A DNA stretch of 33,528 nucleotides, from contig NZ_ML974141.1 of assembly GCF_004143485.2 (NCBI RefSeq), positions 1,303 through 34,830 on the forward strand, written 5' to 3'. This document shows, in pieces, positions 1,664 through 31,576 of this stretch (positions within the stretch are counted from its first letter, which is position 1; the number at the start of each line of letters is the position of its first letter). The notes under the pieces are model-generated. The model was not told the origin of the DNA. It did no database searches and saw nothing but the letters and a program-made list of their open reading frames with translations. Made by a program: the position numbers and the translations under genes. The DNA comes from Halorussus amylolyticus (GTDB taxonomy: Archaea; Halobacteriota; Halobacteria; Halobacteriales; Haladaptataceae).

Positions 1664-1775
1664 GTTCGACTCTCGCCGCCCGGCGGCAAAAGGCGCGTCG
1701 GTGTCGGTCCGCGAGTGCGCCCGCACCGCGGGCGCACTCGCGGGCGGAGGCCAGCCACCCGTGAATCCGCCCTCG

Positions 1776-1804: not shown

Positions 1805-1836
1805 CGGACCCGCGGCTCAGTTGAGCCGCGGGTCCG
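1805..1836. repeat. Perfect inverted repeat (15-bp arms, 2-nt spacer) across the zinc-ribbon stop codon
   Basis: Bases 1805-1819 are the exact reverse complement of 1822-1836, leaving only GT between them. The minus-strand stop codon of the zinc-ribbon gene (1817-1819) is the last triplet of the left arm. The palindrome could shape the 3' end of the mRNA together with the T-run hairpin just downstream. A protein-binding role is equally possible. Confidence 0.6.
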
Positions 1837-17243: not shown

Positions 17244-17289
17244 AAATCAGGCCGAACGCCCGGCTCGCCGGGCGTTCGGCCGATGATTT
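17244..17289. repeat. Long inverted repeat between divergent genes
   Basis: The inner arms (17250-17263 and 17268-17281) are a perfect 14-bp match around a CTCG tetraloop. The outer arms AAATCA (17244-17249) and TGATTT (17284-17289) add six pairs across a 2-nt bulge. The outer right arm overlaps the position where the TATA box of the KTSC gene would lie. The structure may be a cruciform, a regulator site or an RNA hairpin. Confidence 0.6.
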
Positions 17290-17318
17290 GAGTGTCGTCC
17301 CCGTCGTGCCTCCGGCGC

Positions 17319-17663
17319 ATGAAAGCCACCACGACCGAGGGCGAGCGAATCGAGTGCGACGAAGTCGAGGAGGGAGACCGAGGCCTGTTCTGCTACCACG
17401 GCGGGCGCGTGGTCGGCTACGTCCCCTACGAAACGCTCGACAGCGTGGCCGAGACCAGAACCCCCGTCGCGTCGAGTAGCATCCGGAGCGTGGGCTACGA
17501 CGCCGACGAGCGCGCGCTCGAAATCGAATTTCAGAGCGGCGGCATCTACCGGTACGCCGACGTTTCCCAAGAGACGTACGAGGGCCTCGTCAGCGCGTCG
17601 TCGCAGGGGTCGTACTTCCACGAAAATCTCCGAGGTGAGTACGACTACCGCCGGGTTCGGTGA
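17319..17663 (+). CDS. KTSC-domain protein
   Basis: The 114-residue protein has an N-terminal part rich in charged residues (EGERIECDEVEEGDRGLFCYHGGRVVGYVPYETL) and a C-terminal KTSC domain (residues about 50-112). That domain carries the features SSSIRSVGYDADERALEIEF, GGIYRYADVS, the YxxLxxASSxGSYFHENLR core, and YDYRRV. The KTSC domain is named after its occurrence with lysyl-tRNA synthetases; its molecular role is not established, and binding to nucleic acid has been suggested. The ATG 17319 is preferred over an in-frame start at 17292 because the latter would lie in the promoter region (ATGATTTGAG about 29 nt upstream). It ends 12 bp from the convergent rtcA gene, so the two may share termination. 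Confidence 0.8.
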   Translation: MKATTTEGERIECDEVEEGDRGLFCYHGGRVVGYVPYETLDSVAETRTPVASSSIRSVGYDADERALEIEFQSGGIYRYADVSQETYEGLVSASSQGSYFHENLRGEYDYRRVR

Positions 17664-17675
17664 GTCGTCACGGAA

Positions 17676-18818
17676 TCAGTGACCCTCGGCGACGAGCGTC
17701 GGCGGTGACCCCTCGATTACGGTCACGTCGAGTCCGAACTCCGCGACGAGGTCGATACCGGTCCGAACGTGGTCGGTGACCTCGGGAACCGTCACGCGTC
17801 CGCCACACAGCGCGAGGAAGACGACCAGTTGGTCGGCGGTGTGGGCGTCCACCGCGGGCGTGTTCCCCGACGTGGTCGCGTTCGCGGGCGACGGCGCGGC
17901 CGCGCCGTCGCCCGCGTCAGGACTCGAATCCGTGTCCGAGCTTGAATCCGCGTCAGGACCCGAATCGCGGCGGTGAAACGACACCGCGGCGTCGACGACT
18001 CTCGCCCCGACTTCCTCGGCCGGAGTTCCGCGCTCGCCGAGCGCGTCGAACCCCGCGACCGTCTCCTCGTAGTCGAGAACAACTGTGGCCGTCGAACCGG
18101 TCGAGGGCGTTTCGGCGGTCGAAATCGTTCGCTCGACGACCGGAATCTCTGCATTGCGGAGCGACTCGGCCGCGTTCGCGGCCTGTCGCGCCGCGACGTC
18201 GCGGTCGGCGAGGTCCGCGGATTCGGTCGAGTAGATTCGCGCGCCTTCGAGGTCGCCGCGCTCGATGCGTTCGAGTCGGGACGGTGACGAGGGCGCGAGC
18301 AGTAGGGTGGCTCGCCCGCCGCCTGCAGGGTAGAACCCCACCTGTTCGCGTTCGACGGCGGCGAACAGTCCCCACTCTCGGAGCAGTCGGAGCTTCGCCC
18401 GTCGGTAGTGGGCTATCGTCGGCGACCACTTCACGTCGGTTCCGCCGGTGGCCGCGACGACCAGCGGACGGTCGAGTCCGAGCGCGACCGGGAGGAGCGC
18501 GTCGAACGCGAGCGTGACGCTCCCGGCGGTTTCGATGTCGATTTCGACCCGCCCGCCGGTCGGCGCTCCGGGTCGGAACGTCACCGTCTCGGAGCCGAGT
18601 TCGTCGCCCGAGACCGTGGCGTCGCACACCGACGCCGCGGCCCGGACCGCGGCGAGGTGCTGGGGTTTGAGTCCGGGTGTCGGGCGTGACCCCCGGACGC
18701 GACGCATCTGAAACGCCCGGCCGGTCGCCATCGAGAGGCCGAGCGCGGTCCGAAGGAGCTGTCCGCCGCCCGCCGAGCCGTCGAGTTCGAGGAGGTCGGG
18801 TTCGGAGTCCTCATTCAT
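17676..18818 (-). CDS. rtcA: RNA 3'-terminal phosphate cyclase
   Basis: RtcA uses ATP to convert an RNA 3'-phosphate into a 2',3'-cyclic phosphate through a covalent enzyme-AMP. The 380-residue protein shows the family N-terminus (LLELDGSAGGGQLLRTALGL), the RPTPGLKPQHLAAVRAAA motif, and the catalytic His326 in AVDAHTADQLVVFLAL. It is about 35-40 residues longer than usual because of a Ser/Asp/Pro/Ala-rich insert (residues about 285-320) directly before the catalytic His. The insert DNA contains 18-bp tandem repeats and a 34-bp palindrome. The reading frame remains intact, so the enzyme is probably active with a flexible loop. No rtcB or archease gene is in the window. The gene diverges from the glycerate kinase gene. 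Confidence 0.93.
   Translation of the reverse strand: MNEDSEPDLLELDGSAGGGQLLRTALGLSMATGRAFQMRRVRGSRPTPGLKPQHLAAVRAAASVCDATVSGDELGSETVTFRPGAPTGGRVEIDIETAGSVTLAFDALLPVALGLDRPLVVAATGGTDVKWSPTIAHYRRAKLRLLREWGLFAAVEREQVGFYPAGGGRATLLLAPSSPSRLERIERGDLEGARIYSTESADLADRDVAARQAANAAESLRNAEIPVVERTISTAETPSTGSTATVVLDYEETVAGFDALGERGTPAEEVGARVVDAAVSFHRRDSGPDADSSSDTDSSPDAGDGAAAPSPANATTSGNTPAVDAHTADQLVVFLALCGGRVTVPEVTDHVRTGIDLVAEFGLDVTVIEGSPPTLVAEGH
17883..17916. repeat. 34-bp perfect palindrome without loop, inside rtcA
   Basis: Bases 17883-17899 are the exact reverse complement of 17900-17916, with the centre between 17899 and 17900. All bases are G or C except one A-T pair. It encodes residues about 302-312 of the RtcA insert (DAGDGAAAPSPA region). 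Such loopless palindromes are usually unstable, which makes its presence in an enzyme gene notable. Confidence 0.8.
17914..17967. repeat. Three tandem 18-bp repeats inside rtcA
   Basis: Units lie at 17914-17931, 17932-17949 and 17950-17967. The first and third share GCGTCAGGACxCGAATC and the middle one is diverged. They encode six-residue repeats of the type SSxDxD. They adjoin and slightly overlap the 34-bp palindrome. Slippage could change the length of the linker in steps of six residues. Confidence 0.65.
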
Positions 18819-19003: not shown

Positions 19004-20350
19004 ATGACCGACGACGTTGCGATTCGCGACCGGGCCGCCCTCGAAACGACGTCCGCCCGCGAACTCGCACTCGATTGTGCGGCCGCCGGAATCGCGGCGG
19101 CCCGGCCCCGGCGCGTCGTCCGCGAATCGGTCTCGGTCGCGGGCGACGACCTGACCGTCGGGGACGCGACCTACGACCTCCGAGACTACGACGAAGTGGT
19201 CGTCCTCGGCGGCGGCAAAGCCGCGGGCGGCGTGGCCGGAGCGCTCGAAACCGCACTCGGCGACCGCATCGACCGCGGCGTCGTCGTCACGAACGCGCCC
19301 GCCGACTGCGACCGAGTAGCGGTCCGCGAGGGTGACCACCCGGTACCGAGCGAGCGCGGGGTCGCTGGCGCACGCGAGGTCCTCGAACTCGCCGACGACG
19401 CCGACGAGAACACGCTCGTCCTCGCGACGATTACCGGCGGCGCGAGCGCGCTCCTGCCCGCGCCCGCTGACGGAATTTCACTGGCCGACCTCCGGGCCGT
19501 CACGACCGACCTGCTCGAAAGCGGCGCGACCATCGGAGAGATAAACGCGGTCCGAAAGCACCTCTCGGCGCTGAAGGGCGGCCGACTCGCCGAGCGGGCC
19601 GCGCCCGCCGAGGTCGTCGGTCTCGTGCTGAGCGACGTGGTGAGCGACGACCTCGAAGTCATCGCCAGCGGGCCGCTTTCGCCCGATTCCTCGACCTACC
19701 GGGACGCGCTCGGTGTGCTCGACCGCCGCGAAATCGACCCGCCCGCCGGGGTCCGCGACCGACTCGAACGCGGTGCGCGCGGCGAGATTCCTGAGACGCC
19801 GACGGAGGGCGACCCGGCTTTCGACCGCGTCTCGGTCCACGTCCTCGCGGACGGGATGACCGCGCTCGACGCCGCGGCAGAGGTCGCCCGAGACGCGGGC
19901 TACGAACCCATCGTCCTCTCGTCGCGAGTCCGGGGCGAGGCCCGCGAGGCCGCCAAGACCCACGTCGCGATTGCGGAGGAGGTTTGCGCGACCGGAAATC
20001 CTCTCGGCGCGCCAGCGGTACTCCTCTCCGGCGGCGAGACCACGGTAACGGTCCGGGGCGACGGCGAGGGCGGGCCGAATCTGGAGTTCGCGCTGTCGGC
20101 CGCGCTCGAACTCGATGTCGACGATGTGGCAATCGCGAGCGTGGACACCGATGGGAGCGACGGCGGGACCGACGCCGCGGGCGCGCTCGTGGACGGCGAC
20201 ACCGTGGGTGAATCGCTGTCGGCGCGCGCCGCGCGCGCGGCGCTCGCCGACAACGACTCGTTCGGTGCGCTCGACGCCGCGAACTGCGTGCTTCGGACGG
20301 GCGCGACCGGGACGAACGTCAACGACCTGCGAATCGCGGTCGTCGAGTGA
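19004..20350 (+). CDS. Glycerate 2-kinase (MOFRL family)
   Basis: The 448-residue protein has the two parts of the MOFRL-type glycerate kinases. The N-terminal DUF4147 domain carries VVVLGGGKAAGGVAGALE, REGDHPVPSERGVAGAREVLEL and ITGGASALLPAPADGISLADL, and EINAVRKHLSALKGGRLA supplies the conserved Lys/Arg. The C-terminal MOFRL domain carries LLSGGETTVTVRGDGEGGPNLEFAL and SVDTDGSDGGTDAAGALVDG. The enzyme phosphorylates D-glycerate with ATP to 2-phosphoglycerate, feeding glycolysis. In haloarchaea this step belongs to sugar-acid or glycerate use. The ATG 19004 is chosen from the family start (MTDDVAIRDRAAL); the open frame further upstream to 18677 is not protein-like and runs opposite rtcA. 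Confidence 0.9.
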   Translation: MTDDVAIRDRAALETTSARELALDCAAAGIAAARPRRVVRESVSVAGDDLTVGDATYDLRDYDEVVVLGGGKAAGGVAGALETALGDRIDRGVVVTNAPADCDRVAVREGDHPVPSERGVAGAREVLELADDADENTLVLATITGGASALLPAPADGISLADLRAVTTDLLESGATIGEINAVRKHLSALKGGRLAERAAPAEVVGLVLSDVVSDDLEVIASGPLSPDSSTYRDALGVLDRREIDPPAGVRDRLERGARGEIPETPTEGDPAFDRVSVHVLADGMTALDAAAEVARDAGYEPIVLSSRVRGEAREAAKTHVAIAEEVCATGNPLGAPAVLLSGGETTVTVRGDGEGGPNLEFALSAALELDVDDVAIASVDTDGSDGGTDAAGALVDGDTVGESLSARAARAALADNDSFGALDAANCVLRTGATGTNVNDLRIAVVE

Positions 20351-27041: not shown

Positions 27042-27085
27042 CGAACGCCCGCGCCCGCCGCGTTCGCGGCGGGCGCGGGCGTTCG
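27042..27085. terminator. Bidirectional stem-loop between convergent genes
   Basis: Bases 27042-27062 are the perfect reverse complement of 27065-27085, leaving only TT between them (21-bp arms). It lies in the 106-bp gap between the ends of the 95-residue protein gene and the ADH gene. On the plus strand it is followed by AAAATAG; no T-run is seen on either side, so intrinsic termination is uncertain. Confidence 0.5.
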
Positions 27086-31111: not shown

Positions 31112-31576
31112 TCACTCTCGCGAGCGAAGCGACAACGACGCGTAGGTCATCAGCGAGGTAGTGACGCCGAACAGTCCGACCATCACGAGTCGGAGAACGA
31201 GGCCCATGTCCTCGGTATCGACGAACGGAATCGCCGCGAACGCGGCGATTCCGACGAGTGCGAGGACGACGGCGAGAATTCGGTCGTACTTCTTGTCGTA
31301 CTCGATGTTCGCGACTTTGGTCCACCACGTGTCCTCGGGGTCGGGGCGTCGTCGCTCGATGCCGTCCGGCGTCCGAAACGCCCGAAATCGCCACCGGATG
31401 GTGAACAGCAGGTAGCCGACACACCCGCCGTACACGAGGCCCGTCGTGAAACTCTCTGACCCGCGGAGTAGAGCGAAGCCGACCCCGCCGACAAGCGCCG
31501 GGAGGACGAACGCCGCGACCGATTCCAGCAGGTCCACGACGGGCGCTCGCGTCTTGGAGTCGGCGTTCGGGGACAT
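31112..31576 (-). CDS. Small membrane protein with four predicted helices
   Basis: The 154-residue protein has two hydrophobic segments in the first half (SVAAFVLPALVGGVGFALL, GLVYGGCVGYLLFTI), a charged loop (RWRFRAFRTPDGIERRRPDPEDTWWTKVANIEYDKKYDR), and two more segments (ILAVVLALVGIAAFAAIPFV, GLVLRLVMVGLFGVTTSLM). I know no function. It lies between the DUF6789-type gene and the oxidase gene, 92 bp from the end of the latter on the same strand, so it might be co-transcribed with the oxidase. Confidence 0.72.
   Translation of the reverse strand: MSPNADSKTRAPVVDLLESVAAFVLPALVGGVGFALLRGSESFTTGLVYGGCVGYLLFTIRWRFRAFRTPDGIERRRPDPEDTWWTKVANIEYDKKYDRILAVVLALVGIAAFAAIPFVDTEDMGLVLRLVMVGLFGVTTSLMTYASLSLRSRE

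Follow-up and report, generated by a model that had tools for sequence, protein, structure and literature searches.

How did a perfect palindrome come to lie within the coding sequence of an RNA 3'-terminal phosphate cyclase? The question was raised by rtcA of Halorussus amylolyticus, located in the 33,528-nucleotide stretch of DNA analysed here (the window), which corresponds to contig C16 from base 1303. The profile search showed that the rtcA product scored 270.6 bits against TIGR03399, above the curated equivalog cut-off of 250, and matched both PF01137 (RTC) and RTC_insert, with the Pfam RTC_insert covering residues 186-280. The two domains, the TIGR03399 score and a His in the C-terminal motif were the features looked for in an RtcA, and all were found. 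His350 (TDHVRT) aligned with the nucleophile motif SCHLLT of E. coli RtcA, whose His309 we take to be the nucleophile, and is predicted to be the catalytic His of the Halorussus enzyme. The first-pass annotation had assigned this role to His326 (VDAH), which was not correct, since that position was occupied by H, Y, F or N in the relatives. In H. caseinilyticus, a frame change split rtcA, which was annotated as two pieces (L024 ~2060-2121; NZ_CP119810.1 ~55160-55228), and a 14-bp hairpin was located 30-60 nt downstream of this frame change.

The loopless palindrome of 34 bp was found exactly at the position reported for it (17883-17916), and the reading frame was kept in the 380-aa RtcA. When folded as RNA or DNA, it formed a 15-bp stem with a 4-nt loop. 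Its 17-nt arms were far beyond chance, as a Markov-5 model of the genome gave no loopless arm longer than 13 in 8 Mb. When about 50 RtcA proteins of haloarchaea were aligned, the linker, from the end of RTC_insert to the AVDAH motif, was about 40 aa in this species versus 3-5 aa in most haloarchaea, and was longer to a varying degree in a few others (H. pelagicus, H. limi, G008, and Haloglomus). The linker is therefore indel-tolerant, and the insert is not common ancestral sequence. The insert was lineage-specific, as had been suspected, and an ordinary sequence shared by all relatives was not what the alignment showed. The three 18-bp tandem repeats were present as well, at 17912-17966 instead of the 17914-17967 originally given; compared with the first copy, the third was 95% identical and the middle one only 74%. 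The features of the window are listed in Table 1.

Table 1. Coordinates in the window of rtcA, of the elements in its linker and of the perfect hairpins
Feature	Position	Strand	Extent	Remarks
rtcA, RNA 3'-terminal phosphate cyclase	17676..18818	-	380 aa	catalytic His predicted at 350
Hypervariable Ser/Asp/Ala/Pro-rich linker	17856..17975	-	codons 282-321	between RTC_insert and C-terminal part of large domain
Perfect loopless palindrome, 34 bp	17883..17916	.	codons 301-312	17-nt arms, no spacer
Three 18-bp tandem repeats	17912..17966	-		encode hexapeptide repeat
Hairpin	1709..1743	.	stem 16, loop 3	inside a gene
Hairpin	1805..1836	.	stem 15, loop 2	
Hairpin	17250..17281	.	stem 15, loop 2	between hydantoinase-like gene and 17292-17663 ORF
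Hairpin	27042..27085	.	stem 21, loop 2	
Hairpin	31226..31253	.	stem 13, loop 2	

Within its own genome, the rtcA palindrome is not unusual. When a hairpin was defined as a perfect stem of at least 14 with a loop of 0-5, 232 hairpins were found in 1.60 Mb of the genome (145/Mb), versus 1 in 4 Mb (0.25/Mb) in the Markov-5 simulation. The whole 3.78-Mb genome is estimated to contain about 550 of them (145/Mb x 3.78 Mb). Loopless palindromes with arms of at least 14 (35 in 1.63 Mb) formed a separate hump at 15-20 nt. The distribution of loop sizes peaked at 2 nt and dropped sharply past 5; loops of 0-5 match the short spacers of template-switch mutations. The hairpin sequences were all distinct, except for short GC-rich overlaps and two poly-G runs. 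According to a simple home-made gene caller, 131 of the 238 hairpins were inside genes, and the density was about threefold lower in called genes (~100/Mb) than outside (~300/Mb), with the caller covering 81% of the sequence and some of the “outside” hairpins possibly located in missed genes. Transcription terminators were rejected as a general explanation because only 31 of the 238 hairpins lay between convergent genes and over half were intragenic. In 24 alignments, with more than one relative at some sites, the identity to relatives was 29% at the hairpins versus 58% over the whole proteins. An insertion was present at the hairpin in half of these alignments; the hairpins lay in insertions or in stretches of weak conservation.

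Rich and poor species were both found within the genus. The densities of the rich Halorussus were 145/Mb in H. amylolyticus, 124/Mb in G006, 194/Mb in H. caseinilyticus and 240/Mb in H. vallis, and G003 showed 172/Mb from 12 kb only. No hairpin was present in H. limi (122 kb), H. pelagicus (99 kb), H. aquaticus (62 kb) or H. halophilus (62 kb), 346 kb together, and G010 contained one in 76 kb. At the rate of the H. amylolyticus genome, the Poisson probability of the counts in the poor species was 2e-8 to 2e-4, in a comparison that leaves aside eight further species with too little sequence. Chance in GC-rich DNA was ruled out by the Markov-5 simulations and by the GC-matched sister species. 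The rich species also had an excess of hairpins with 1-3 mismatches, which fits the birth of hairpins followed by their decay; in the poor species such hairpins were far fewer and the excess was small or absent. Complete plasmids on record for H. caseinilyticus and H. vallis contained 10 and 13 hairpins per 50 kb, respectively. On these annotated plasmids the setting of the hairpins was the same as in the H. amylolyticus genome, and one of them, of 14 bp, lay within the rtcA of H. caseinilyticus. In the 40-60 kb samples of other haloarchaeal genera, the count was mostly zero; one genus had three copies of one sequence and one other hairpin, and one more had two hairpins. Two GC-matched, GC-rich bacterial plasmids had 0. 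G053 contained a 30-bp loopless palindrome, CAGGTGGAGGTCTGCGCAGACCTCCACCTG, in three identical copies (L200:12414, L201:7624, and L202:2852), and this palindrome is probably a repeat element unlike the Halorussus hairpins. The longest stem in the samples, 28 bp and perfect with a 3-nt loop, was located in G006 (L185:4363-4421).

On a two-protein tree, the rich and poor species were interleaved, and this scattering suggests more than one gain or loss. H. caseinilyticus was placed beside poor species, with supporting nodes of 30-63% only, leaving the number of changes uncertain. Loss of a hairpin nuclease was rejected as the switch because Mre11/SbcD-like matches were present in 18 of 18 species, though below the bacterial cut-off. 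Loss of DHH (RecJ-type) proteins was rejected too, as the gene counts were similar and did not track the on/off pattern. The Rad50 zinc-hook model was uninformative, as it matched only 3 of 14 control genomes, none of them a halophile.

How such hairpins arise could be followed in alignments of three genes across the genus. In a PLD-like gene, the arm CGGCGCGACCGACTTC (LGATDF) was near-invariant across 18 Halorussus. The adjoining 16 nt, GAAGTCGGTCGCGCCG, were its exact reverse complement only in H. amylolyticus and its sister G006; elsewhere the second arm was, for example, GGCGTCGCCCGGACCG or GAAGTCGCCCGGACCG, of equal length and without an indel. Similarly, GCCGCGGTGGTCGCC (AVVA), the right arm of a hairpin in a MobA-like gene, was identical in G009 and the left arm was 53% identical, again without an indel. 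At both sites, the variable arm has been overwritten in place by the reverse complement of the conserved arm. In the linker of an ABC-ATPase, conserved DALA codons, or close variants of them, paired with different left arms in H. amylolyticus, G006 and G003, and G001 had an imperfect hairpin. Over the gap-free set of nine sites, the more conserved arm scored 0.78 and the less conserved arm 0.60, on average a moderate contrast that is inflated by the choice of larger and smaller, and some of these sites had no clear template arm. The pairing in the relatives at hairpin sites was 53-81% in some and near chance in others. Neither arm of the rtcA palindrome was conserved or had an alignable counterpart in the relatives, so no template arm can be named for it. 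It is therefore assigned to the hairpin class by its shape, genome and setting rather than by a reconstructed event, and on these grounds we infer the same origin for it.

The evidence for template switching is all comparative, mostly at 60-80% protein identity, and on this evidence the rtcA palindrome is likely to be a mutational “scar” of template switching (quasipalindrome correction), one of about 550 in the genome. We infer that the conversions happened during replication. The growing strand would fold back, or switch to the opposite one, at a short inverted repeat already in place. After copying about 14-26 nt of the adjacent arm it would return, and the outcome would be a perfect inverted repeat whose spacer is 0-5 nt. 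Genic scars would persist if the new arm leaves the frame intact and lies in a loop that tolerates it; the rtcA linker is such a loop, and it has also been lengthened by 18-bp tandem duplication. Selection would filter the scars into variable loops and intergenic DNA. For the difference between species, there is about an even chance that a heritable factor within this one genus activates a strong template-switching mutator, or shuts down the removal of its products, by which some species gain hundreds of hairpins making new protein loops and their sisters none.

Fold-back priming in break repair, with end resection and snap-back synthesis instead of template switching at the fork, would account equally well for the short spacers and for perfect stems of limited length. 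It is an unlikely source, because the replacement of an arm in place by one of equal length, with normal flanks on both sides, needs two switches and is explained more simply by quasipalindrome correction than by end joining. That the hairpins are functional, namely selected RNA or DNA structures in some species (terminators, mRNA stabilisers or protein sites), appears distinctly improbable. Their density was higher outside genes and one of them was identical in two species; against this, over half were intragenic and in the least conserved parts, sites and sequences mostly differed between species, and close relatives with orthologous genes had zero. One hairpin in H. amylolyticus (C7:142402) was also present in the rather distant H. 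caseinilyticus (L272:43378), in the same codons, differing by one mismatch in an arm and in the loop; it may have survived for long or have recurred. Another was identical in G006 despite ~70% protein identity. Such shared hairpins leave room for maintenance by selection. The first-pass annotation had also suggested a hairpin that slows translation; a dedicated pause of this kind is unlikely, since the palindrome was not kept in the other RtcA genes and hairpins like it were also found between genes.

A mobile palindromic element inserted into rtcA, similar to Rickettsia palindromic elements or REP/BIME, would agree with the linker being an insertion relative to the relatives. It is scarcely credible given the whole-genome search, in which the full palindrome region matched only itself and the redundant second contig, the 20-nt core had no other match at one mismatch or fewer, and no family was found with either; the hundreds of other hairpins differed in sequence, and several arose without an insertion. 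The identical copy was confined to the redundant 34.8-kb stretch, with no dispersed element. This stretch belongs to a draft-quality assembly, in which C16:1-34830 and C7:1-34835 started at the same base and were 99.9% identical over 34.8 kb, the differences being an N gap and a cluster of eight mismatches. The duplication probably represents redundancy in the assembly, and the scaffold sharing its start with the 34.8-kb contig then enters poly-C junk and an N gap. The eight differences were located within 73 bp (window 20172-20244), and otherwise only the last bases of the contig differed. The patch resembles a local sequence error in one of the copies; it makes no hairpin and was rejected as a fresh template switch. 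With such an assembly, an artefact of assembly or sequencing has to be weighed, and it is extremely unlikely as the source of the hairpins: the frames were kept, the hairpins avoided conserved protein sites, and the complete plasmids of H. caseinilyticus and H. vallis were equally hairpin-rich. Together with these plasmids, a 32-bp palindrome that is identical at the orthologous position in another species, assembled separately, largely removed the worry about an artefact.

The larger phenomenon was unexpected, and the reading of the insert as a “palindromic element” is not supported. Perfect hairpins are usually taken as a sign of function, whereas hundreds of them here, genic and intergenic, resemble by-products of erroneous copying. 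In this way, variable protein linkers, that of RtcA among them, may be written from neighbouring sequence in single steps. Since rich and poor species are sisters, the responsible factor can be sought by comparison.

Rickettsia palindromic elements and REP/BIME are short palindromes, some of them intragenic, that occur as families of similar copies. Unlike these elements, including the described REP families (PMC3733652), the Halorussus hairpins were all different, and multiple similar copies were not found. Our literature search, thin on subscription journals, found no earlier reports of such hairpins in Halorussus or other haloarchaea; a 2026 inverted-repeat survey of 118,019 genomes gives archaeal averages, and a text search of it found no mention of halophiles. 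The palindromes in the mitochondrial protein genes of Nematomorpha, for which template switching has been proposed, are similar in that many perfect inverted repeats lie in protein genes and are gained and lost between species (PMC6649704). Those repeats reach 284 bp, both of their arms encode conserved residues and their identity is all-or-nothing, whereas the Halorussus hairpins are short, usually have one conserved arm or neither, and belong to a cellular genome instead of an organelle. Strict all-or-nothing identity of the arms was absent, as hairpins with 1-3 mismatches were common. In RNA hairpins made and maintained by template switching, a single event likewise creates a perfect stem (PMC8794818); those cases are RNA genes, and the present ones are mostly in protein genes with no RNA function indicated. 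Quasipalindrome template-switch mutations are known in E. coli, yeast and other eukaryotes (PMC7202029, PMC8604942, PMC8794818). In the E. coli and yeast cases, clustered changes in one arm turn an imperfect repeat into a perfect one, as may have happened in Halorussus; the hairpins resemble these cases in the short spacers, in the recurrence at the same site and in the coding effects (PMC8604942). The yeast cases comprised 39 genes with arms of 7-16 bp (PMC8604942), compared with arms of 14-26 bp and an estimated 550 per 3.8-Mb genome here. Unlike the E. coli and yeast cases, the Halorussus hairpins occur in an archaeon and follow a strong on/off pattern between species.
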